Assembly: GCA_937960645.1 (NCBI GenBank)
Contig: CALGPJ010000004.1
Location: 1 to 47,479 of the forward strand
Length of the DNA: 47,479 nucleotides
Reading direction: 5' to 3'
Source of the DNA: an uncultured Spirochaetia bacterium
Lineage (GTDB): Bacteria; Spirochaetota; Spirochaetia; JABEVK01
Made by a program: the position numbers and the translations under genes. Positions within the stretch are counted from its first letter, which is position 1. Every line of letters starts with the position of its first letter. The notes under the pieces were generated by a model, which was not told the DNA's origin, searched no databases, and worked only from the letters and a program-made list of their open reading frames with translations. Of the stretch, positions 6,141 to 47,479 are shown piece by piece.

Positions 6141-8409
6141 CCCTGAATTGCAAATCATTTTCGAAAAGGCCTTCAACGAGGCTCAGCATAAGGGGCACGA
6201 GTATCTGACCCCGGAACACCTGGTTTGGGCTGCCATGGAGCACCCTGCCTCGCTGAACATCCTCCGCCTCTGCGAGGTGGACATCGACAAACTTCGTGCC
6301 AAACTCCAGGAATACTTTGAAAAGGACATGCCCAAGAGATCCTCCAAATCCAAGCAGCGCCCCACCGAAAGCCTGGGATTTCAATCGGTGGTGGAAAGGG
6401 CCATCATGCAGTCCGTGGGAGCGAACAAGCCCGACATCGACCCCGGGGACATCCTCGTGGCGATCTATGACGAAAAGGAAAGTTACGCCAGCTTTGCCCT
6501 GAGGAGCGCCGGCCTGGCCCGACTCACCCTTCTTCAGGTCATCAGCCACGGGATCAATGTTACAGGGCCCAATTACGACGAAAGCGGCAAGCAATCGAAG
6601 AACGATGAGTCTAAACCGAGCAAGGGGCTTTTGGAACAGTTCACCATCGACCTCACGGCCCTGGCCCGAGAGGGTAAACTGGATCCCCTGATCGGGCGCC
6701 AGGACATCCTGGATCGCACCATCCAGGTACTCTGCCGAAGAATCAAAAACAACCCGGTGCACGTGGGCGAACCGGGCGTAGGCAAGACGGCCATCACCGA
6801 GGGTCTGGCCCAGAGGATCGTCAACGGCGAGGTCCCCGACTTATTGAAGGACTATCAGGTCTACAGCCTCGAAATGGGCGGTCTTGTGGCGGGAACCCGT
6901 TACCGCGGCGACTTCGAAGAAAGGCTTCGGAAAATCATTCAGGAACTGACCAAAAAATCCAAGGTCATCCTGTTTATCGACGAAATCCACAACATCGTCG
7001 GGGCCGGTGCGGTCAGCGGCGGCAGCCTGGACGCGTCCAACATCCTCAAACCGGCCCTGGCCGCCGGAAAGCTTCGCTGTATCGGTAGTACCACATACGA
7101 AGAATTCAAGAAATACTTCGAAAAAGACAGGGCCCTGGCTCGCCGCTTTCAAAAAATCGACGTGAACGAACCCAGCGTCGAAGAAGCCATCGACATCCTC
7201 AAGGGGTTGCAGCCTCGCTACGAGGAGTACCACCGTGTCCGCTACACCCCCGAAGCCATACGGCAGGCGGTGCTGCTCTCCAACCAATTCATTACCGATC
7301 GTCACTTGCCCGACAAGGCGATCGATGTGATCGATGAGTCCGGGGCCTGGCTGCGAAACTTCGTCCCCATGCGCGAGAGCGAGTCTCCCGAAGAATATCG
7401 TGTATTGGACGAAACCATCGTGGAGAAAACCCTCGCGAAAATGGCGCGGATTCCCGAACGCACCGTCAGCGTGAGTGAAAAAGATCGATTACGCGACCTG
7501 GAAAACCGCCTCAGGATGGTGATCTACGGACAGGACGAGGCTGTCCATCAGGTCGCTCAGGCGGTCAAGCGCTCGAGGGCGGGATTCCGCAAGCCCAACA
7601 AGACCGTCGCCAACTTTCTCTTCGTCGGGCCGACGGGGGTGGGAAAAACCGAACTGGCCCTGCAGCTGGCCAACGAACTCGGACTGGCCCTCCACCGCTT
7701 CGACATGAGCGAGTACCAGGAAAAGCACACGGTCAGCCGCCTGATCGGAAGCCCCCCCGGTTACGTCGGCTACGAAGAGGGCGGGGTGATGATCGATGCG
7801 ATTCGAAAAAATCCCCACGCCGTTCTCCTGCTGGACGAAATCGAAAAGGCCCACAACGATATTCTGAACATTTTGCTTCAGATCATGGATTATGCCACCC
7901 TCACCGATCAAACCGGACGCAAGGCCGATTTCCGCAACGTGATCCTGATCATGACATCGAATGCCGGGGCCCGTGAACTCGGCAAGAGCCTAATCGGCTT
8001 CGGGGAGAGAGCTCACGGCACCAGTAGTATCCAGCGCGCCGTCGAGCGGGTGTTCAGCCCGGAATTCCGAAACAGGCTGGACAAGGTCGTGATCTTTGAA
8101 CGGCTGAGCAAAGACGTCATCCGCGACATCGTTCGCAAAGAGCTCAAAGAAGTCGATCAAATGCTTTCCGAAAAGAATCTGGCGCTTGCTTACTCCGAGG
8201 AAGTCCTCGACCATCTCGGAAATCTCGGTTACAGCGAGGAATTCGGCGCCCGCAACATCGCTCGGGTTGTGGATGAGCAAGTCAAGGAATGGCTCGTGGA
8301 CAAGGTCCTCTTCGGCGAATTTTCCTCGAAAGGCACCATCCGTTTGAAACTGGTGGATGGAAAAGTGGACTTTGATTGGTTTGAGAACAATGAAGTTCCC
8401 GTTTCTTGA
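6130..8409 (+). CDS. clpA: ClpA, ATP-dependent protease unfoldase subunit
   Basis: 759 residues from the ATG inside the clpS end (11-bp overlap), the usual ClpA size. It has an N-terminal Clp repeat domain (~1-145), AAA module 1 with GEPGVGKT and Walker B ILFIDEIH, and AAA module 2 with GPTGVGKT and Walker B LLLDEIEK. There is no long ClpB-type coiled-coil insertion between the modules. A LIGFGER loop (~620) matches the IGF/IGL tripeptide that docks onto ClpP, so it should work with ClpP encoded elsewhere. The first Walker A is preceded by NNPVHV rather than the common NNPLLV, a minor change. Cytoplasmic hexamer; partner ClpS is directly upstream. Confidence 0.95.
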
Positions 8410-15471: not shown

Positions 15472-16376
15472 TGCATCGACTGCTCGTTCTGACCCTGGGA
15501 CTTTCGCTTACTCTGCCTCTGGCATCACAGCAAATAACCTTTAAACATTGGGTGGTAAACACGGGAAACCTTCGCCTGGGCGACTTGGTGGAATACCAGG
15601 AGGGACTGGAGAACTACCTCTTTTTGCCGATCCGTCTCAGTGAGGAAAGCATCTGGGTCCTGTGTCCCCGGTGGGTGATGAGCCAGGTGGGGCTGCCGGA
15701 GAGTACAAGTTTTGTAGTGGCCCGAATCTTGGTGGTGCCAGCAAAATGGGACATTCCGAGCGCGCTGATAACCGAGCTGGGGAAATGGATGAACGACCAA
15801 AATAGTGGCCCGAATTTTGTGGTTGAGCTGCGAGACGTGAAGCTACTGGACCCCCTGCCTCTCGGAGTTCAGACCTACCAGCTCAGTCGCATTTCCGGCG
15901 AAAAGACCTTCAACATTCCCAACGGCTACTGGGTTTGGCGCATCAACCCTGCTCAGTCATCCAGCAGAATTCGTGCCCTGGTCCAAGTCCACGTCCCTGT
16001 TTTAAGACTTCAAAAAACCATGGGGCGCGGGGCCTCTCTCACCGCAGAAACTTATCAAATTGAATATTTGCCCCTGAACCAATTTTTTCGTCGGCCAATG
16101 ACCGTGGACGATTTAAGTGCGCGCTGGATTCTGGCTCAACCCGTGCGCTCCGGCGAAATCCTCTATACCTATCAAGTCCAACCCGTCTACGATGTCAACG
16201 CGCAAACGGGAATCAGAGTTGTAGTTCAGCGAGCCGGCATCCGTGTCGAAATCAACGGCGTTTCCCTGGATGGCGGCAATATTGGGGACCGGATCCGAAT
16301 TCGCCTTAATGACTCCGGCCGCAGCCTGCGTGCTCTTGTAACGGCCGAGGGAGAGGTTCATGTTGAAAATCTCTAA
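15468..16376 (+). CDS. flgA: FlgA, flagellar P-ring assembly chaperone
   Basis: 302 residues, longer than the ~220 of enterobacterial FlgA. It has a Sec signal peptide (HRLLVLTLGLSLTLPLASQQ), an N-terminal domain (~25-170), and a C-terminal SAF/beta-clip domain (~190-300; RRPMTVDDLSARWILAQPVRSGEIL and the terminal GDRIRIRLNDSGRSLRALV). FlgA is a periplasmic chaperone for FlgI, which is the next gene, overlapping by 17 bp. Two direct copies of the local 22-bp repeat lie in the N-terminal domain (residues ~83-90 and ~112-119). They are read in different frames, giving ARILVV and SGPNFVV. The frame stays intact across both. Confidence 0.88.
   Translation: MMHRLLVLTLGLSLTLPLASQQITFKHWVVNTGNLRLGDLVEYQEGLENYLFLPIRLSEESIWVLCPRWVMSQVGLPESTSFVVARILVVPAKWDIPSALITELGKWMNDQNSGPNFVVELRDVKLLDPLPLGVQTYQLSRISGEKTFNIPNGYWVWRINPAQSSSRIRALVQVHVPVLRLQKTMGRGASLTAETYQIEYLPLNQFFRRPMTVDDLSARWILAQPVRSGEILYTYQVQPVYDVNAQTGIRVVVQRAGIRVEINGVSLDGGNIGDRIRIRLNDSGRSLRALVTAEGEVHVENL
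15715..15736 (+). repeat. Dispersed 22-bp repeat, copy A, inside flgA
   Basis: It begins TAGTGGCCCGAATCTTGG and ends TGGT. It has the same sequence type and orientation as the left terminal repeat of the element at 17813. In flgA it is translated as V-V-A-R-I-L-V-V. Confidence 0.85.
15803..15824 (+). repeat. Dispersed 22-bp repeat, copy B, inside flgA
   Basis: It begins TAGTGGCCCGAATTTTGTGG and ends TT. It lies 88 bp after copy A in the same orientation but is read one base out of phase, giving S-G-P-N-F-V-V. Confidence 0.85.
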
Positions 16377-17385
16377 AAAGATTGGATTCTTCCTTTTAGC
16401 CGCGGCAAACTTACTCGCTCAGGAAACAGCTACTAACCAATCCCTTTCCCCCATGCCGGCCGCGCCCCAGGTGCGAATCAAGGACCTGGCGCGCATCGAG
16501 GGGCTCCGAGACAACCAACTCACCGGCCTCGGCCTCGTCGTGGGACTCAACGGCCAGGGGGACTCCTCGTCCAACGCCGCCTTGATGGAAATGTTGTCCA
16601 GTTTGATGTCAAACCTGGGGGCCCAGGTCCGTCCCGAGGATTTACGAAGTAAGAATGCCGCGGTCGTGGCCATCACCGCCACGGTTCCCGCGTTCACCCG
16701 ATCCGGCGACGCGTTAGATATCCAGATCGCCAGCCTGGGCGATGCTAAAAGTCTGTCCGGCGGCCTACTGCTCCAGACCCCTCTCAGGGCCGCCGATGGC
16801 CTGGTCTACGCTGCTGCCCAGGGCCGCGTCCTCGCACCCACAGGGAGAGGTGCAGTGAGCACATCCGGTACCATCCCACGGGGCGCCATTCTCGAACGCT
16901 CCATTCCACTACCGGAAATCCAAAGTGAAATCGTTTTCCTTCTACATCGGCCAGACTTCTCTACTGCCCAAAAAATCGTTGAAGCGCTTAGACAATCGTT
17001 TGCCGATGCCACCGTGACAGTTCAGGACGCCGGCAGAGTTGTCTGGCGCCTGGGCGCGGGGGACCGAATCGCCTCGATCGCACAGGCCGAAAACCTGATG
17101 GTCAGTGCCGACAGTGTGGCGCGTGTCGTGGTCAACCGTCAGACGGGGGTGGTCGTCATGGGCCAAAATGTACGCCTGGGTGCAGCGACGGTGAGCGTGC
17201 GCGGTGCCAAAATCAGCATCGGCGACCGCCGCGCCAGCGAGCAGGGCCGCATCCAGTCGACCACCAGCGTCGAAGATCTGGTCAGCCTCCTGCAAAGCCT
17301 GGGGCTTTCCACCGATATCATTATCGACGTCCTGGAGGCGCTCAGTCGTGCGGGTGCGCTCTTTGGGACCCTGGAGGTATTATGA
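16360..17385 (+). CDS. flgI: Flagellar P-ring protein FlgI
   Basis: 341 residues with a signal peptide (KKIGFFLLAAANLLAQ). Family blocks are VRIKDLARIEGLRDNQLTG, GLVVGLNGQGDSS, NAAVVAITATVPAFTRSGD, ALDIQIASLGDAKSLSGG and the C-terminal VEDLVSLLQSLGLS. FlgI forms the periplasmic P ring around the rod. It directly follows flgA with a 17-bp overlap; the L-ring gene flgH, usually between them in Gram-negative operons, is absent. That fits periplasmic flagella, which need no outer-membrane bushing. It overlaps flgJ by 4 bp (ATGA). Confidence 0.95.
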   Translation: MLKISKKIGFFLLAAANLLAQETATNQSLSPMPAAPQVRIKDLARIEGLRDNQLTGLGLVVGLNGQGDSSSNAALMEMLSSLMSNLGAQVRPEDLRSKNAAVVAITATVPAFTRSGDALDIQIASLGDAKSLSGGLLLQTPLRAADGLVYAAAQGRVLAPTGRGAVSTSGTIPRGAILERSIPLPEIQSEIVFLLHRPDFSTAQKIVEALRQSFADATVTVQDAGRVVWRLGAGDRIASIAQAENLMVSADSVARVVVNRQTGVVVMGQNVRLGAATVSVRGAKISIGDRRASEQGRIQSTTSVEDLVSLLQSLGLSTDIIIDVLEALSRAGALFGTLEVL

Positions 17386-17714
17386 ATCCGATCTTCCCTC
17401 CGCGGGAACCGCCGGTTCCCGGCATCTTGCCCAACACGCCCATTGACCGTAACAGCGAGCTCTACAAGGCTGCCCAGGAGTTTGAGGGGCTCTTCATCAA
17501 CATGATGCTCAAAGCCATGCGCAACACCGTAGAGCGGGGCCCCATCAACAATGGTGGTTTCGCCGAGGAGATCTTTGACGATATGCTTTACGAGGAAAGA
17601 GCCAAAACCATTGCCCGCACCGCCGGATTCGGCCTTGCCGATACCATCTACCGTCAACTCAGCTTTGTTCAATCGGTCCCGAGATCGCCGGATTTCACCA
17701 GCTATACGAATTGA
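17382..17714 (+). CDS. flgJ: FlgJ-like rod-binding protein (no muramidase domain)
   Basis: 110 residues. Only the N-terminal rod-binding domain is present (AAQEFEGLFINMMLKAMRNT, then GGFAEEIFDDMLYEERAK and GFGLADTIYRQL). The C-terminal glucosaminidase of proteobacterial FlgJ is missing, as in many other phyla, where a separate enzyme opens the peptidoglycan. The short form acts as a rod cap or assembly scaffold. Start by ATGA overlap with flgI. It is the last gene of the flagellar operon; downstream comes a hairpin with a U-tract in the opposite direction, then the insertion element. Confidence 0.9.
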   Translation: MNPIFPPREPPVPGILPNTPIDRNSELYKAAQEFEGLFINMMLKAMRNTVERGPINNGGFAEEIFDDMLYEERAKTIARTAGFGLADTIYRQLSFVQSVPRSPDFTSYTN

Positions 17715-17725
17715 ATCAACATGGC

Positions 17726-17765
17726 AAAAAAAACGGCATGCCCCTGGACGTTGATGGCATGCCGT
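17726..17765 (-). terminator. Rho-independent terminator for leftward transcription
   Basis: The inverted repeat is ACGGCATGCC / GGCATGCCGT (17733-17742 and 17756-17765). It is preceded on the plus strand by eight A's, which on the minus strand form the U-tract after the hairpin. It therefore ends transcripts coming from the right. The nearest leftward gene is rarA, 1.3 kb away beyond the insertion element, suggesting the element separated rarA from its terminator. The hairpin may also weakly stop flg transcripts. Confidence 0.65.
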
Positions 17766-17812
17766 AAAGCTATATGCTCTAGATAAAGTGTCGGCTGAAA
17801 TTCAAAAAACTT

Positions 17813-17834
17813 TAGTGGCCCGAATCTTGTGGGT
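17813..17834 (+). repeat. Left terminal inverted repeat (copy C of the 22-bp repeat)
   Basis: It begins TAGTGGCCCGAATCTTGTGG and ends GT. It is the only copy of the series that lies outside a coding frame. Confidence 0.85.
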
Positions 17835-17961
17835 GATTGTCCCTGGCCCATCCACCATTAATATTTCTCTTCGAACTACACACACATCTAAAAACTGTAC
17901 GAACTTCAAAAAAAGAAGTACAAAACCCCTTTAATTTGCCTTATTCAGGGTGGAGGAAGTG

Positions 17962-19164
17962 TTGGAAAGATTCGTTCCACCCCATTGCCCCAACCCAAAA
18001 TGCCCAGGCCACCGGGACCCTCAATCGTTGCCAGGCCCTTGGTACATTCATAATGGCTATTACTCTACCAAACAAACCTCCAAAATTGCGCGTTACAAGT
18101 GTACCACTTGCGGAAAGAACTTCTCCGAGAGGACCTTTCAACTCGCTTACTACGATCATAAAAAATTGGCTTATAAAAAGATTTACACTTTGCGCAATTA
18201 CGGAATGAGCCTCAGAGCGATCGCCCTCTTCTGTAAAATGTCCCGCCAACGAGTCTTCCGAGGTCTAGCAAAACTTGCTCGGCAATCGCTTGCCGTTCAT
18301 AGCCGTATGCTCACGCAACTTGCCGACCAGACTATTTGCGAACCTCTAGTTTTTGATGGGATCTTAAACTTCGTTTTCTCTAAGGCACATGCCACCTCGA
18401 TGCAGATCACCGTATTGAAGGAAAGTCAGCTTGTGACCGATTTCGATCAAATTTCCGTAAAACGCCAAGGTAAAATGTCAAAAAGAGAACTGGAAAAGGC
18501 CAGGGAACTTTATCGTCGGCATCCGCCTCCCCGTAGAGCCCTTCGCCTGAGTTGCCAGCGGGTTTTCGGGGGAATCGCCGAACGTTATCCCGACACGGCC
18601 ATCGAATTATATACAGATCGTCATCTAACCTATCCGATCGCCTTAAAATGTCTGGGGCTTCAAAATTGGCGCCATTATCGAATAGATTCCAAGCTAAAAC
18701 GCAACCTGTTTAATCCCTTGTTTTCGGTGAATTACATCGAGCGAGAAATCCGAAAAGACCAGGCCGATTTCGAACGCAAAACAGATAAATTTTCTAAAAG
18801 GCTGGAATACCAAAGTGAGCGCCTCATGAATTACTTTGTTTGGCATAATCTGCAAAAGCCCTATCGGCTTAACGGTGACTTTACAAACTGTCCACATGCC
18901 AGAAGAGCCGGGATCAAAACTTCGTGGATCAAAAATCAACTCAAGACCATGTTTCGATTTCGGGCCTTTGGATCACGTGAAAACCTAAACTTTTGGATGA
19001 CAAGGATCTGGAACAGAAAAGGGGGAAGTCCTGACCTTAAACTGGCAAAAATGGCTCATTACCTAAGCGTCCCAGAACCACCAAAATTCGGGCCACTAGA
19101 TTTGCGGCGCTCTGACCATAACTCGCCCGCGGCCTTTTCCCAGCCATGCGATCCGGGTTCATAA
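17962..19164 (+). CDS. Zinc-ribbon/DDE-type transposase
   Basis: About 400 residues. The zinc ribbon has CPNPKC and YKCTTC (C9, C14, C47, C50), followed by a helix-turn-helix-like stretch (YGMSLRAIALFCKMSRQRVFRGLAKL). Candidate acidic catalytic residues are D132 (LVFDGIL), D219 (LYTDRHL) and E260 or E262 (VNYIERE). The C-terminus has a WHNLQKP motif shared with the fragment at 1-306. Start: GGAGG at 17952-17956 favours TTG at 17962 or GTG at 17959; GTG at 17950 is also open. The frame has no stop inside the element. It runs through the right terminal repeat (PPKFGPL) and ends in flanking DNA antisense to rarA, so its last ~22 residues are host-derived. Whether it is active is unknown. Confidence 0.8.
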   Translation: MERFVPPHCPNPKCPGHRDPQSLPGPWYIHNGYYSTKQTSKIARYKCTTCGKNFSERTFQLAYYDHKKLAYKKIYTLRNYGMSLRAIALFCKMSRQRVFRGLAKLARQSLAVHSRMLTQLADQTICEPLVFDGILNFVFSKAHATSMQITVLKESQLVTDFDQISVKRQGKMSKRELEKARELYRRHPPPRRALRLSCQRVFGGIAERYPDTAIELYTDRHLTYPIALKCLGLQNWRHYRIDSKLKRNLFNPLFSVNYIEREIRKDQADFERKTDKFSKRLEYQSERLMNYFVWHNLQKPYRLNGDFTNCPHARRAGIKTSWIKNQLKTMFRFRAFGSRENLNFWMTRIWNRKGGSPDLKLAKMAHYLSVPEPPKFGPLDLRRSDHNSPAAFSQPCDPGS

Positions 19165-20378
19165 AAACGCACATCCTTTAGATCATCCGGTAGGTATTGC
19201 TGGGCGACCCAATGCCCTTCGAAGTCATGGGGATAAAGGTACCCATGGCCATGTCCCAACCCTTGAGAATCGCGACTCGAGTCCTTGAGGTGGCCGGGCA
19301 CCTCGCCCCCGCCCCTTTGCTTTAAATGATCCAGAACACGAAACAGGGCGACGGTGGAGTTGCTTTTCGGAGCCAGGGACAACCTCAGAGTCGCAAAGCT
19401 TAAAAAGTAACGCCCCTCTGGCATCCCAACGCGATCAAAGGCGGCGGCCGCGGCCTCTACCTGGGGTAGGGCCTGGGGATCCGCCAGACCTACATCCTCG
19501 CACGCGCTGATGAGCAACCTCCTCCAAATGAAAGAGGGATCTTCTCCAGACTCGAGCATGACTCCCAGCCAATACAAGGCAGCATCGGGGTCACTGCCGC
19601 GAATGCTTTTAATAAACGCCGAAGCGATGTCGTAATGGGCATCGGCGGTCTTGTCGTATCGAAGCTGGGGTCTCTGGGCTGCTTCAAGAACGTGGCCCTT
19701 GTCAACCACAAAATTCGGACCACTAACAAAATTTAACATCTCCAACACATTCAACACTTTGCGCGCGTCGCCACCGGCGACATCCACAAGCGCTTCCCGG
19801 GCCCCATCCGTCAGGGTAAGTCCCCGACCCCCCAGACCGCGCTCTCGATCGGCCAGTACCCTCTCTACAAGTTCCATGAGATCCCGCCTTTCTAGGGGCC
19901 GGAGTTCGTAGACTCGACTGCGGCTAAGGAGGGCCGAGTTCAACTCGAAGAAGGGGTTGGCCGTGGTGGCCCCAATCAGTACAACCGTGCCCTCTTCCAC
20001 CCAGGGCAAAAGCGCATCCTGCTGGGCCTTGTTCCACCGGTGGACCTCGTCCACAAACAAAATCGTGCCCTGACCGTGAAATCGCTTTCGCTGCTGGGCA
20101 GACTCCAAAACCTCTTTTAATTCCTTTACCCCGCTCAGCACCGCATTGAGAGTGACAAAACGCCGCTTCGTGGTGTTGGCAATCACCTGTGCTAAGCTCG
20201 TTTTGCCACAACCGGGCGGCCCATAGAGGATAAGACTCGTCAACTGGTCTCGTTCGATCGCCTGGCGCAGCAGACTTCCCTCCCCCAGAATGTGCGCCTG
20301 CCCCAGCACATCACTCAGGACTTTGGGACGAAAGCGAACCGCAAGGGGCTTATCGCCCTGATCCTCAAAAAGTTCCAT
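19059..20378 (-). CDS. rarA: RarA/MgsA, replication-associated recombination AAA+ ATPase
   Basis: 439 residues. RarA acts at stalled replication forks and unwinds DNA ends. Features are an N-terminal DVLGQAHILGEGSLLRQAI block, Walker A GPPGCGKT, Walker B FVDEVHRW, sensor GATTANPFFE, arginine finger LLSRSRV, and a tetramerisation domain with SIRGSDPDAALYWL and YPHDFEGHWVAQQYLPDDL. It carries two copies of the 22-bp repeat. One is in the variable linker after the lid (residues ~218-225, SGPNFVV), the other in the last 14 residues, which come from the insertion element. The natural C-terminus after FYEPGSHGWEKAAGE has thus been replaced, though all conserved domains remain. The start is 12 bp after the lysA stop. 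Confidence 0.92.
   Translation of the reverse strand: MELFEDQGDKPLAVRFRPKVLSDVLGQAHILGEGSLLRQAIERDQLTSLILYGPPGCGKTSLAQVIANTTKRRFVTLNAVLSGVKELKEVLESAQQRKRFHGQGTILFVDEVHRWNKAQQDALLPWVEEGTVVLIGATTANPFFELNSALLSRSRVYELRPLERRDLMELVERVLADRERGLGGRGLTLTDGAREALVDVAGGDARKVLNVLEMLNFVSGPNFVVDKGHVLEAAQRPQLRYDKTADAHYDIASAFIKSIRGSDPDAALYWLGVMLESGEDPSFIWRRLLISACEDVGLADPQALPQVEAAAAAFDRVGMPEGRYFLSFATLRLSLAPKSNSTVALFRVLDHLKQRGGGEVPGHLKDSSRDSQGLGHGHGYLYPHDFEGHWVAQQYLPDDLKDVRFYEPGSHGWEKAAGELWSERRKSSGPNFGGSGTLR
19077..19098 (-). repeat. Right terminal inverted repeat (copy D of the 22-bp repeat), within the rarA 3' end
   Basis: The minus strand begins TAGTGGCCCGAATTTTGG and ends TGGT. It is translated as S-G-P-N-F-G-G near the RarA C-terminus and, on the plus strand, as P-P-K-F-G-P-L in the transposase frame. 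Confidence 0.85.
19704..19725 (-). repeat. Dispersed 22-bp repeat, copy E, inside rarA
   Basis: The minus strand begins TAGTGGTCCGAATTTTGTGG and ends TT. It is in sense orientation and translated S-G-P-N-F-V-V, the same frame as copy B in flgA. It falls in a linker that, from memory, varies between RarA orthologues. Confidence 0.85.
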
Positions 20379-20390
20379 GGGCTCAGAGAT

Positions 20391-21716
20391 TCAGAGAGAA
20401 TTCAGGACCGACGAAAGACCCGGGTGATCCAGGGTCGCAAAAAGATCATGGTAAGACTCAGCCCGCCGAATGACGCGCCACTTTCCCGGCCCTTGATAAA
20501 GGACCTCGGAACTTCGCAACTTGCCGTTGTAATTAAACCCCATGCTGTGGCCGTGGGCCCCTGTGTCATGAATCACCACAAGATCCCCCAAAACAGGGTC
20601 GGGAATTTCGCGGTCGATGGCAAATTTATCGTTATTTTCGCAGAGCGATCCCGTCACGTCGTAGACCTTGGTCGGACCTCCGACACGAGCCGGCACCGAA
20701 ATATGATGATAGGCTCCGTACATACCCGGACGCATCAGGTTGGCCATGCATGCATCGAGACCCAGGTATTGTTTGTAAATGTCTTTTTTATGCAGAGCGC
20801 GCGACACCAACCACCCATAGGGACCGGTGACCATGCGGCCATTTTCCATAACTACGCGAACGCTGCCCAACCCCGCAGGTTCTAAAATTCGGCGATAGGC
20901 CGCCTCGATGCCGGAGCTCAACCGCTCCAAGTCCACCGCTTCCTGTTCGGGACGATACGGAATACCGATGCCTCCCCCCAGGTTAATGAAGCTAACCTCC
21001 ACGCCGGAACGACTTTTGATGTCCACCGCCAGCTCGAAAAGCATCACAGCCGTTTCCACGAAATATTCCGGATTGAGTTCGTTAGAAGCCACCATGGTGT
21101 GCAGGCCAAAGTTTTTGACGCCGCGCTGTTTCACGATCCGATAGGCCTCGAGGATTTGATTCTGCGTCAGACCGTACTTTGCCTCCTCGGGCTTACCGAT
21201 AATCACATTCCCCTGTTTCAGGGGCCCGGGGTTGTACCGGAAGCACAAGGTCTCCGGCAAGCCGCCGAGGGCTTTGTCCAGGTAATCGATGTGGCTGAAG
21301 TCATCGAGGTTGATGATCGCCCCCAGTTCGGCTGCCTTTTGGTATTCCTGGGCGGGTGTATCGTTGCTGGTGAAGATGATCTCCTGACCCAGGATGCCCG
21401 TGGCCTGGCAAAGCAATAGCTCGGCCTTGCTCGAGCAGTCCATCCCCATGCCTTCTTCCTTTAGAATCTCTAAAATGTATGGGTTTGGAAGAGCTTTGAC
21501 GGCGAAATAGTTTTTGAAGCCGCCGGGGACCCAGGCAAAGGCACGTGCGAAACGACGGGCATTCTCTCGAATTAGAGCTTCGTGATAGATGTGAAAAGGT
21601 GTAGGCACCTGCGCAGCAATGCCTTCCAATTCTTCAAGGGTAAAAGGTAAGGTTTTGTTAGCCATGGCTTGAAGGTAATCATCGACCCGCTGGCGGTCAA
21701 CATGGACAGAAGGCAT
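20391..21716 (-). CDS. lysA: Diaminopimelate decarboxylase-type PLP enzyme (fold III)
   Basis: 441 residues. It probably decarboxylates meso-diaminopimelate to lysine. Signatures are PTPFHIYHEALIRENARRF, the PLP lysine in YFAVKALPNP, INLGGGIGIPYRPEQEA (phosphate-binding glycine loop), MENGRMVTGPYGWLV (the EPGR-like element), SLCENNDKFA and HDTGAHGHSMGFNYNGKLR. The sequence differs from the second PLP decarboxylase at 25320-26501, so the two are not duplicates. The ATG overlaps the MATE stop as TGATG, an unusually tight coupling, so the ~40 residues the frame could add upstream were rejected. Other fold-III amino-acid decarboxylases are possible alternatives. Confidence 0.85.
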   Translation of the reverse strand: MPSVHVDRQRVDDYLQAMANKTLPFTLEELEGIAAQVPTPFHIYHEALIRENARRFARAFAWVPGGFKNYFAVKALPNPYILEILKEEGMGMDCSSKAELLLCQATGILGQEIIFTSNDTPAQEYQKAAELGAIINLDDFSHIDYLDKALGGLPETLCFRYNPGPLKQGNVIIGKPEEAKYGLTQNQILEAYRIVKQRGVKNFGLHTMVASNELNPEYFVETAVMLFELAVDIKSRSGVEVSFINLGGGIGIPYRPEQEAVDLERLSSGIEAAYRRILEPAGLGSVRVVMENGRMVTGPYGWLVSRALHKKDIYKQYLGLDACMANLMRPGMYGAYHHISVPARVGGPTKVYDVTGSLCENNDKFAIDREIPDPVLGDLVVIHDTGAHGHSMGFNYNGKLRSSEVLYQGPGKWRVIRRAESYHDLFATLDHPGLSSVLNSL

Positions 21717-23044
21717 CAAACGCGGAGTGCCTTTACCCAACGATCGCCATGAAAACGCCACCCCAAAAGCAGGGCCCGGAGTACAAAGTCCGCCCCCATG
21801 CCTATCCACACGCCGACCAGGCCCCAATCCGCACCCAAACACAAAATTAGGGCCACCGGCAGGCGTACCCCAAACCGTGAAGCAAGCATCGTCCAGAGGG
21901 TGAATCGAGTGTCACCCGCTCCTCGAAGGGCAGGCCCCAGCACCATGGTCCCACCTAGAAAGGCCATGGTTAATGCATAAACGCGGAGAGGCCAAATGCT
22001 CAAAGCGATCACTGCCGGGTCCGTCGTGAAAAATCCCACCAGCTCGCTGGCAAAAAAGGCATACACAAAACTCAGACCTCCCAACACGCCCATGGCATAA
22101 AAAGTCGCACGCCAACCCAGGCGCCGAGCCAGGGCTGGATCCCGAGCTCCCAAGGACTGCCCCACTAATACAATCGCAGCCATCCCGAAACCGAAGGCCG
22201 GGGTAAAACTCAGGCTCGATAGTCTCATGGTGATTTGAAAGCTCGCGGCGGGCAGGGCCCCCAGGGGGTTGACGGCCCAGGCGATCAGGAGATTTTGACT
22301 GACCGCCATCGCCGCCTGCTCTAGGAAGCTTGGTAAACCAATGTCCACGATGGACCCTAGCAGCCGCCGACTTAGCTCGAGGCTCCGCCACGGACTGTAA
22401 GGAGTACGCCCGATCATAATCGCCTGAACCAGCCCGGCAATACAGGTACTCAAGCCTGTTGCGAGGGCGGCCCCCGCAGTCCCCAGGGGAGGAAAATCGA
22501 ACCACCCAAAAATGAGGAGGGGATCGAGAGCCACGTTGAGCACATTGGCCCCCAGGGTAATGAGGGTGGGACCTACGGCCGCTCCGCTGGCCCGATGAGC
22601 CGAGTCTAAGGCATTTCGAAAAAAGGCCGCTGGCAGGAAGATCAAAAAAACATGAAGGTAAGAATCCGCTTGATTCCAGAGTTCCGCGGGAAGCTGGATC
22701 GCCTGAAGTAGACCCGAACGAAACACAATTAAAAAGGGAGTGATAACCAGCCCCAAACCCAGGGTCGCTACCAGTCCCGTCCAGGCCGCCACTCGAGCCC
22801 CATGCCACTCGCGCGCCCCCAATTTTCGGGCCACGACCGCAGTGATACCCGTCCCCAGGCCATCCGCGATCGTCATGACAGCCCAAACCAGGGTGCCGAT
22901 GGTCCCCACAGCGCCGATCGCCTCCGGGCCCAAGCCGCCGACGAAAATCATGTCCACCGTCTGCATGAGTGTTAGGGAAATGTTGTTGACGACAGCGGGT
23001 AAGGCCAGGCGGAGGATGCGCGAACGTTCTGTAGAGGCGGCCAT
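21716..23044 (-). CDS. MATE-family multidrug/cation efflux transporter
   Basis: 442 residues with about twelve membrane segments. The MATE pattern is seen in the N-terminal half (LRLALPAVVNNISLTLMQTVDMIFVGGLGPEAIGAVG, read in parts) and a second half beginning near LPSFLEQAAM. The family couples Na+ or H+ entry to export of drugs or metabolites; substrates cannot be inferred. It is first in the leftward operon MATE-lysA-rarA and divergent from trmB, with only 24 bp between start codons, so the promoters must overlap. A degenerate 22-bp repeat may lie at 21836-21857, in the segment encoding part of a late membrane helix. Confidence 0.9.
   Translation of the reverse strand: MAASTERSRILRLALPAVVNNISLTLMQTVDMIFVGGLGPEAIGAVGTIGTLVWAVMTIADGLGTGITAVVARKLGAREWHGARVAAWTGLVATLGLGLVITPFLIVFRSGLLQAIQLPAELWNQADSYLHVFLIFLPAAFFRNALDSAHRASGAAVGPTLITLGANVLNVALDPLLIFGWFDFPPLGTAGAALATGLSTCIAGLVQAIMIGRTPYSPWRSLELSRRLLGSIVDIGLPSFLEQAAMAVSQNLLIAWAVNPLGALPAASFQITMRLSSLSFTPAFGFGMAAIVLVGQSLGARDPALARRLGWRATFYAMGVLGGLSFVYAFFASELVGFFTTDPAVIALSIWPLRVYALTMAFLGGTMVLGPALRGAGDTRFTLWTMLASRFGVRLPVALILCLGADWGLVGVWIGMGADFVLRALLLGWRFHGDRWVKALRV
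21836..21857 (-). repeat. Possible degenerate copy of the 22-bp dispersed repeat, inside the MATE gene
   Basis: CACAAAATTAGGGCCACC (plus strand, 21840-21857) matches 16 of 18 positions of the repeat, and 17 of 22 over the full unit. The outer bases are lost. It may be an older copy or chance. Confidence 0.4.
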
Positions 23045-23051
23045 CAGCGCA

Positions 23052-23060
23052 TGCTATACT
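23052..23060 (+). promoter_or_regulatory. Extended -10 promoter of trmB-thpR
   Basis: TGCTATACT is an extended -10 element ending eight bases before the ATG at 23069. The predicted leader is zero to three bases. It lies in the 24-bp gap between the divergent MATE and trmB starts. Confidence 0.45.
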
Positions 23061-23068
23061 TTTATCCG

Positions 23069-23716
23069 ATGTTGAGCAATTCTCACGGGCCGCTACCCAC
23101 AAAATTCGGACCACTAGAAAAATTGGAGAGAAGTCTCCACAGACACCAATGCCACCCATGGCGGCGTCCCCCCGCCGCCTTCAGTCTGGAACTTTGGCGC
23201 TGTCTCGAGACCTGGCGCCATCCCACGCGGGCGCTTTTCCTCGACCTGGGCTGCGGGCGCGGTCTGGCCACTCGCCAGCTTGCGGAACGCTTTCCCGAAG
23301 CACAGGTGCTGGGTATCGACAAAAGCGCCCACCGTCTTCGCGATGCGCCCCCACTTTCGCCAGAAATGGCCCTTGTTCGGGGAGAACTCCAGGATTTAGT
23401 CCCCCTCATGGTCCAGGCGGGATGGAAGGCGGAACAGGTTTACGTTCTCTACCCTAATCCCTGGCCCAAGTCCACCCAGGCCAAGCGGCGCTGGCCCCAC
23501 CACCCCCTGTTTCCTCTGATTGTCCGGCTGGGGCCGCTTGAAATGCGAACAAACTGGGAGCTTTACGCGCAAGAATGGGCCCAAGCATGTCGGATTTTAG
23601 GTATTGAGGTAGAGGGTCCCCATCCTCTCGAACAGCCATCCTGGCCCACAACATCCTTCGAGAAAAAATACCGTGCACAGGGGCTTACCCTTTGGAAGGT
23701 CAACTCTCATGGCTGA
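23069..23716 (+). CDS. trmB: tRNA (guanine-N7-)-methyltransferase TrmB
   Basis: 215 residues. It forms m7G46 in tRNAs using S-adenosylmethionine. Family marks are FLDLGCGRGLATRQLAE (SAM-binding loop), LGIDKSAHRL, the catalytic YVLYPNPWPKSTQAKRRW segment (normally FPDPWPKxRHxKRR), RTNWELYAQEW and TTSFEKKYRAQG. Start at 23069 rather than the in-frame ATG at 23051, because that ATG is part of the extended -10 box. Copy F of the 22-bp repeat occupies codons 9-16 (antisense orientation, read P-T-K-F-G-P-L), in the poorly conserved N-terminus. The stop overlaps thpR by 8 bp. Confidence 0.88.
   Translation: MLSNSHGPLPTKFGPLEKLERSLHRHQCHPWRRPPAAFSLELWRCLETWRHPTRALFLDLGCGRGLATRQLAERFPEAQVLGIDKSAHRLRDAPPLSPEMALVRGELQDLVPLMVQAGWKAEQVYVLYPNPWPKSTQAKRRWPHHPLFPLIVRLGPLEMRTNWELYAQEWAQACRILGIEVEGPHPLEQPSWPTTSFEKKYRAQGLTLWKVNSHG
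23095..23116 (-). repeat. Dispersed 22-bp repeat, copy F, inside trmB
   Basis: The minus strand begins TAGTGGTCCGAATTTTGTGG and ends GT. It is antisense to trmB and translated P-T-K-F-G-P-L near the N-terminus. Confidence 0.85.
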
Positions 23717-24314
23717 TACTCTGCGCCTTTTTGTTGCCCTGAAGCCGCCGCCAGACGCAGCCGTCCAGCTGACCCAGCTCCTAAGCCGCCACCCACAAAA
23801 TTCGAGCCACTACCGAAATCTTACCTCCGAATCCCTTCACCTCACCCTGGCCTTCCTCGGTGATACCCCCGCCCCCGCCCTCCCCGAACTCACCGCCGCC
23901 CTCCGCACCCACCTCAATCCCTTACACCCCATTCGCCTCACGCTGGATCGCTGGATCACCCTGCCACCGGGGCCGAAGCCAAATGTTTTGGCCCTCGAGG
24001 CCTCCACCACTCCGCCCAACCTGCTGGCGCTGTACCGGCAAGTACAGGAAGTGGTACGGGACCTCTCTATCCGCTATTCCCTGCCCCAGTTTCGCTACTC
24101 ACCGACCCGCCTCTTGCCCCACGTGACCTTGGCTCGTCGCCGCGGCCAAGGTCCCCTTCCCATCCTGGGCGGGGCATTGGACCACACCCTCCATCCACCG
24201 ATCGAAATACCTTTCCTGGGCGTGGCCGTTTATCAAAGCCTGCTCTTGCCCGAGGGGGCAAAGTATATCGTGAAGGAATTTCTAGGATGGAGCGACTCGG
24301 CGAGAGATGGATAG
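23709..24314 (+). CDS. thpR: RNA 2',3'-cyclic phosphodiesterase (2'-5' RNA ligase family)
   Basis: 201 residues. Members of this two-histidine phosphoesterase family hydrolyse 2',3'-cyclic phosphates of RNA. The paired catalytic motifs are visible as LHLTLAFLGD (~44-53) and HVTLARRRG (~138-146), both HxTx. The N-terminus LRLFVALKPP is typical. Start at 23709 overlaps the trmB stop by 8 bp; together they form a small tRNA/RNA-processing operon. Copy G of the 22-bp repeat supplies residues ~28-35 (H-P-Q-N-S-S-H-Y) in the loop before the first catalytic strand. This is the only copy read in this frame. No key residue is lost. Confidence 0.88.
   Translation: MADTLRLFVALKPPPDAAVQLTQLLSRHPQNSSHYRNLTSESLHLTLAFLGDTPAPALPELTAALRTHLNPLHPIRLTLDRWITLPPGPKPNVLALEASTTPPNLLALYRQVQEVVRDLSIRYSLPQFRYSPTRLLPHVTLARRRGQGPLPILGGALDHTLHPPIEIPFLGVAVYQSLLLPEGAKYIVKEFLGWSDSARDG
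23791..23812 (-). repeat. Dispersed 22-bp repeat, copy G, inside thpR
   Basis: The minus strand begins TAGTGGCTCGAATTTTGTGG and ends GT. It is antisense to thpR and read as P-Q-N-S-S-H-Y. Confidence 0.85.
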
Positions 24315-47177: not shown

Positions 47178-47479
47178 CCGATGTCATTCCGAGCGCGCGT
47201 TGTCATTCCGAGCGAAGCGAGGAATCGTTTTTTGGAGTGTCCTTGCCCCCGAGCGAAGCGAGAAGATCTCTCACCTGCTGCGCAGGTTCGAGAGAACTCT
47301 CACCTGCGGATGTGGGGTATAAAGATTCCTCACCTGGGATTGCTGGTTAAAAGGATTCCTCACCCGCTGCGCAGGTTCGGAATGACATATCGGGCGCTGC
47401 GCAGGTTCGGAATGACATATCGGGCGCTGCGCAGGTTCGGAATGACGTATTGGGTGCTGCGCAGGTTCGGAATGACATA
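47178..47479. repeat. Array of short GC-rich palindromic interspersed repeats
   Basis: The last ~300 bp carry no gene. They contain copies of GTCATTCCGAGCGAAGCGAG followed by GAATC, inverted relatives (GATTCCTCACCCGCTGCGCAG then GTTCGGAATGAC), and CTGCGCAG palindromic cores. From ~47365 the sequence becomes a perfect 30-bp tandem repeat (GCAGGTTCGGAATGACATAT is part of each unit; unit starts at 47371, 47401, 47431 and 47461), running off the window edge. The GTCATTCCGAGCGAAGCGAG-type element is, from memory, found in intergenic regions of many bacterial phyla. There are no CRISPR-like unique spacers between units. Confidence 0.85.

Follow-up and report, generated by a model that had tools for sequence, protein, structure and literature searches.

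The insertion sequence and its setting

The window analyzed here, a stretch of 47,479 nucleotides from an uncultured Spirochaetia bacterium, belongs to an assembly of 2.23 Mb in 75 contigs that is 99% complete. An IS1-like insertion sequence (IS) is located on the forward strand at about 17813-19098, and its right end lies inside the 3' end of rarA, as an earlier note on this sequence had observed. The inverted repeats at 17808-17834 and 19077-19103 are complementary at 81% of positions. The element ends were placed by comparison with relatives whose ends begin TAGTG or TACTG; this sets them at 17813 and 19098, perhaps 2 bp further out. Both the left end (17813-17835, forward strand) and the right end (19076-19098, reverse strand), which also encodes the tails of RarA and of the transposase, form inverted repeats and resemble the ends of relatives. 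No other full copy of this kind of element is present in the genome; the next full-length relative there shows 31% identity and has different ends.

To the left of the IS follow, in order, 47 bp, a leftward hairpin with a U-run (17726-17765, reverse strand) and a rod-binding flgJ-like gene. The fold of the hairpin (-19.1 kcal/mol, z -2.97, with none of 200 shuffles as good) bears out the leftward terminator previously proposed on the far side of the element. It is absent from the list produced by a simple consensus terminator scan, probably because its loop exceeds the maximum of 8 allowed in that scan. It is plausible that the insertion parted rarA from this terminator.

No target-site duplication was found, in line with the earlier note: the 9-mers lying 2 bp outside the ends agree at only 1 of 9 positions. 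That this should be unusual did not hold up, since 11 of 15 related elements also have no duplication. The 9-bp duplications of the other four, two perfect and two matching at 8 of 9 positions, all come from a single genome (G011). The missing duplication was for this reason dropped as a sign of deletion.

Other repeats can be observed at the edges of the window. Positions 1-369 hold a fragment of the genome's other IS in the same superfamily, with the C-terminus of its transposase at about 7-234 and its end, TCGTGCCGCGGCAATTGCAC, at 350-369 on the reverse strand; such fragments occupy many contig ends of the assembly. Around the full copy of that other IS (in L081), a search for solo ends of its family returned just its own two ends. 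The right end of the window (47299-47479) carries 30-bp tandem repeats.

The transposase

The transposase frame of 404 amino acids (17950-19164, forward strand) begins with GTG at 17950 and its stop ends at 19164, so that 383 residues lie inside the element and 21 outside. It extends 66 bp beyond the right end, running antisense into rarA without a stop of its own, exactly as described before. To judge from its relatives, a frame with no stop inside the element is unusual. The earlier note had allowed for a different natural stop in this transposase family. Of 14 related elements, 12 have their stop within the element, 25-130 bp short of the right end, and in the other two (L090 6133-7296 and L091 9443-10624, reverse orientation) it is formed by the last bases of the end together with one borrowed flanking base.

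The window protein has no Pfam match, and its match to the IS1 transposase model is weak (34.4 bits, the cut-off being 100). All 11 aligned family members match the IS1 model at E values up to 0.01, and 5 of the 11 match the IS1/IS1595 zinc-binding domain. In the alignment, D136 and D223 are invariant; at the third acidic position, which is almost always D, the window has E264. These three positions may form the acidic triad of a DDE-type catalytic site. The window protein also differs from its ten aligned relatives at the conserved stretches DGFESF and SQYFPNNINI, and its frame is open. A single-protein search of the genome contigs returned no close relatives, and an alignment scan returned distant ones, 80 of 153 being listed; among the matches listed, the named records encoding this IS family are mostly spirochaetes.

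The rarA junction

The rarA gene (19059-20378, reverse strand) encodes 439 amino acids and lacks the long C-terminal extension of its relatives. The first 426 residues are encoded wholly outside the element, and residues 427-439 (SSGPNFGGSGTLR) are element-derived. The IS end therefore supplies the new C-terminus of RarA, as had been proposed, with 13 residues instead of the approximately 14 first counted. The 3' ends of rarA and the transposase gene overlap on opposite strands by the reported 106 bp (19059-19164).

Comparison with relatives, which the earlier note had suggested as a way to recover the original C-terminus, was made with stop-to-stop frames at 24 loci, those returned for the 60 genomes searched. 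The RarA frames have 676-815 amino acids in 22 of the 24 and 460 and 464 in the other two; the frame from the same genus has 722, and those of four other family members 711-754. The window protein follows its relatives up to SERRK and then continues into element sequence. Judged by these frames, RarA has lost about 290 residues. Its MgsA_C domain is complete (165 of 167 positions), and the shortened protein, with its canonical domains complete, may work as an ordinary RarA.

The stretch just left of the IS encodes nothing like the relatives' C-termini. In the whole genome the lost part was likewise not found by a weak search, which detected the tails of two long-frame relatives (G002 and G003, E about 0.001) and missed that of a third (G004, 718-aa frame). 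Because the tail is lost and is absent beyond the IS, the flanking DNA must have been deleted or moved. The comparison thus points to an insertion with loss of flanking DNA and not to the exchange of gene ends that was originally described. This argument rests on RarA and not on the target duplication, because most related elements have no duplication either. By itself, the rarA junction would be ordinary.

Solo IS ends in the flanking genes

The IS end, TAGTGGYCCGAATYTTGTGG, of about 21-23 bp, recurs without any IS interior at five further places in the window: 15715 and 15803 on the forward strand and 19706, 23097 and 23793 on the reverse strand. The two forward copies lie in flgA, at residues 83-90 (15715-15737) and 112-120 (15803-15825). 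The third (19703-19725) lies in the rarA linker, at residues 218-226; the fourth (23094-23116) is antisense near the start of a trmB-like gene, and the fifth (23790-23812) is antisense in a thpR-like gene at residues 40-47. All five are within 5 kb of the element and point outward from it. The earlier reading, made from the sequence alone, had overlooked them.

A matrix built from both IS ends and the five solo copies scores the solo ends at 37-40 bits; the next site scores 20.0 bits, and six first-order Markov shuffles reach no more than 10.9. A 19-base pattern, allowed up to 2 mismatches, gave six matches in the whole genome, namely the two IS ends plus four of the solo copies, every one within 15804-23811; the reversed control gave 0 and the expectation is 0.04. 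No end copy at this threshold was found outside these 8 kb in the 2.23-Mb genome. The fifth copy, at 15715, has three mismatches to the pattern and one to an IS end. A chance origin is rejected by the scores, the reversed control and the expectation. Relative to the genes, the copies occupy two sense frames and two antisense frames; the repetition is therefore at the DNA level, and a protein-level repeat is rejected on the same grounds. None of the five has an opposite partner within 400 bp, which sets them apart from MITEs, and A+T-rich sequence lies just outside several of them.

Two weaker, outward resemblances to the IS end were observed in a MATE-type gene, at 21839-21857 (20.0 bits) and 22817-22835 (19.2 bits); these may represent still unconverted native sites, or chance similarity in coding sequence. 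Weak sites of this kind, with 4-5 mismatches (21839 and 22817 in the window, L242 7232 and 12488, and L243 4619 in other loci), were left out, because picking by similarity biases a comparison with relatives.

The genes that hold the copies were compared with their homologues. FlgA aligns without gaps over both copies to the homologue of G001 (30% identity), the only one found among 6 family genomes, and deleting the copy-encoded residues lowers the alignment score from 391 to 379 and 378. ThpR shows no insertion at its copy relative to the homologue of G004 (28% identity). The case for in-place change in the window consists of these two homologues, one FlgA and one ThpR. The rarA linker that holds a solo end is shorter than in relatives.

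End copies in other genomes

Among the 394 genomes of the class, 5 have any end match, the window genome included, and no copy with up to 2 mismatches was found in G001-G006. The exact IS end has no occurrence in viral contigs. Similar solo ends do occur in other genomes that carry this IS family. G044 has a related transposase, paired 105-bp MITEs with a similar end (L199 3970-4074, 5153-5257 and 19526-19630; L201 3067-3171) and one unpaired copy (L199 11567).

Rectinema subterraneum (G394, the genome of L183) has 80 end matches at up to 2 mismatches and 0 in the reversed control. The end copies go together with the IS: G414, a genome 79-80% identical to that of Rectinema along long stretches, gave no match to the IS part (both rows for G414 being listed) and carries no end copy with 3 or fewer mismatches in the 425 kb covered of its about 3.0 Mb. 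Two further genomes, both with IS-like matches, were examined over 19 kb each: G417 has one end copy and G410 has none.

In Rectinema, 47 distinct copies were examined, 16 of them IS ends and the other 31 classed as solo; about 29 remained solo after inspection, L224 2802 and L234 103 being removed as they look like ends of an IS variant. When 26 copies, including three weak ones with 4 mismatches, were placed against predicted frames, 15 fell inside a frame and 11 between frames. Some solo ends form same-strand clusters of two or three, 31-63 bp apart (L239 4828-4941, L241 2147-2260, L244 5422-5504 and L245 4197-4273). At L239 4828 and L248 3455 the TAG of the solo end is the stop codon of the preceding gene.

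Five strong Rectinema copies were compared with relatives at about 70-80% nucleotide identity, and three of them proved decidable, a set that does not include the intergenic copies L242 3913 and L243 5041. The valS copy (L243 10544) shows no indel against any of 6 relatives; it matches the end at 20 of 21 positions, compared with 10, 11 and 13 in the three relatives counted, and its single mismatch is a base also found in the relative L271. The POR-alpha copy (L242 5735) shows no indel against any of 17 relatives and matches at 17 of 21 positions, all consecutive, compared with 8-12 in the five relatives counted. The POR-gamma copy (L242 4208) coincides with a 30-bp in-frame insertion against all 12 relatives in a multiple alignment; pairwise alignments put the gap at varying places. 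By these alignments, the valS and POR-alpha copies are shown to be in-place substitutions of native DNA that was already partly similar. As these two arose in place and the POR-gamma copy was inserted, there must have been at least two kinds of event.

Where Rectinema has a block of a solo end, an MFS gene and an IS, five relatives have about 80-140 bp instead. The block may be native, since MFS-like sequence follows thiolase in G416.

Orientation of the copies

The flanks of 53 elements, window included, were surveyed (about 896 kb, some contigs being counted twice) for copies with up to 3 mismatches that lack both an IS interior and a MITE partner. Of such copies, 17 pointed outward and 2 inward. 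The test was run after L237 15570 had been dropped as the same site as L133 13247, L237 2509 and 5735 because they lie between two IS copies, and L160 7433 because of a possible partner at 7282. This left 14 outward and 1 inward (p 0.001), the single inward copy, in L148 and 37 bp from a contig end, being retained. With the window excluded, the numbers are 9 outward and 1 inward (p 0.02). Just four genomes supply the 14 outward copies (window 5, Rectinema 7, UBA6076 1, Marispirochaeta 1), which are not independent. The weak site L242 7232, with 4 mismatches, would be inward.

Discussion

The observations at this locus can be arranged into a sequence of four steps. An IS1-like element would have become joined to rarA after codon 426; the junction itself is observed, and we infer its cause. 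On the other side, the DNA that encoded the RarA extension is missing, which is what an IS-adjacent deletion would leave, and by this step RarA would have gained 13 element-derived residues and the transposase frame 21 codons read antisense into rarA. Five further IS-end copies, all outward, then stand within 5 kb of the element. Some copies would have replaced, in place, native sequence with a partial prior likeness to the end, which is observed at two Rectinema sites and has protein-level support at three window sites. In the last step, the transposase would bring together the distal true end and a flanking pseudo-end that points outward, treating the two as the limits of one larger transposon. 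The paired ends would form an imperfect inverted repeat, template switching or repair would perfect the pseudo-end, and the edited flank would stay in, or recombine back into, the chromosome. Perfect outward ends could let the IS move along with neighbouring genes.

This explanation as a whole, an IS-adjacent deletion at rarA followed by conversion of outward pseudo-ends in place through the transposase, is proposed tentatively, as a reading that may well prove wrong. An outward rule is expected from it because only an outward flank end makes a proper transposon, and such pairing with template switching would jointly account for the in-place change, the exact length, the native similarity, the locality and the direction. 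In-place perfection is seen by sequence comparison for valS and most of POR-alpha. The further prediction that a copy resembles the distal end gave a mixed outcome (L133 for, L179 against, the window mixed). The broader idea, that the IS seeds its own ends, with the transposase having outward end-like sequences rewritten in intact genes so that the neighbours become potential cargo, we consider rather doubtful. Against the proposed explanation as a whole count the POR-gamma insertion, by which not every copy arose in place, the shorter rarA linker at the window copy, at least 41 of the 53 surveyed elements, which have no extra end copy, the many Rectinema copies that do not adjoin an IS in the loci examined, and the fact that no excised or circular form was seen.

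The solo ends could also be footprints of whole IS or MITE copies that hopped in locally and were later deleted to one end, their reading frames being kept by selection. Paired-end MITEs do exist in this IS family (L085, L127 and L148, besides those of G044), the A+T-rich sequence outside several window copies would suit such an origin, and the POR-gamma insertion, about one end plus 9 bp, is better explained in this way. Footprints may explain further copies, that in the rarA linker included. Yet valS and POR-alpha have no indel against any relative, the window copies have no opposite partner, and the copies end at the inner edge of the IS end and not at random IS positions; as a general account, footprints seem to us unlikely, if still worth serious thought. 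Should they be the right account, the locus would still be an unusual record of repeated local IS visits. Another route would need no transposase: fragments of the IS end, in single-stranded form, might anneal during replication or repair at chromosomal sites of partial similarity and overwrite them. Short-patch replacement of this type is known and would give in-place change at just such sites, but from free pieces neither the outward excess nor the confinement of the copies to the 8 kb that surround the single full IS would be expected, which makes this untargeted copying improbable.

Derivation of the IS ends from a selected host binding motif would fit the presence of Rectinema copies both between and within genes and the use of a copy's TAG as a stop codon in L239 and L248. 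The motif, however, varies between genomes in step with the IS end and was not found, at up to 2 mismatches, in the rest of the window genome or in G001-G006, nor, at up to 3, in the 425 kb of G414; this origin is accordingly disfavoured and looks very improbable. The simplest account, that an insertion merely swapped two gene ends as the earlier note supposed, agrees with the junction anatomy but does not place the approximately 290 lost RarA residues on the other side of the IS and leaves the five extra end copies unexplained; we give it hardly any credence.

Among known systems, the closest relatives are the IS1 family and the IS1/IS1595-type zinc-binding transposases (NCBIfam NF033558, NF050000). 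The present element resembles IS1 in its size of about 1.25 kb, its short inverted ends and the 9-bp duplications of its relatives in one genome, and differs in the score of its protein, below the curated cut-off and with no Pfam match, in its single long frame and in the extra outward ends in its flanks. The target duplication in the IS1 family is about 8-9 bp. ISEcp1 can transpose with alternative ends, and here too outward end-like sequences beyond the element (all five in the window) could bound a larger mobile unit; the known ISEcp1 cases use such sequences unaltered, whereas here flank sequences become nearly perfect ends, two of them in place. MITEs share the ends and the small size, as in the 105-bp examples of G044, but the window copies are single. 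REP sequences are short dispersed repeats tied to a RAYT transposase gene, and the solo ends are likewise short dispersed repeats linked to a transposase gene; unlike REP sequences, the window copies form no palindromic hairpins, are identical to the IS's own end and accompany another kind of transposase.

The proposed conversion most resembles template-switch mutation at quasipalindromes, in which imperfect inverted repeats are reported to be perfected in place, also in coding sequence (PMC8604942, PMC7202029). The repeats involved are reported to have short spacers (PMC8604942). The partner here is an IS end kilobases away, and something must therefore bring the repeats together. A literature search with narrow terms does not establish that solo IS ends or in-place conversion are unreported.

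If the proposed explanation is true, it would describe how a lone IS could become a transposon that carries genes, with no need of a second IS copy, and would help to explain how single IS copies capture their neighbours. The IS would alter the core genes around it without inserting into them, preparing its own flanks for mobilisation. The explanation would be directly testable, as the same product of about 21 bp can be sought wherever this IS family occurs. Multi-base mutations templated by the IS would also arise in core genes, valS and flgA among them, and would form an overlooked class of clustered mutations in conserved proteins.
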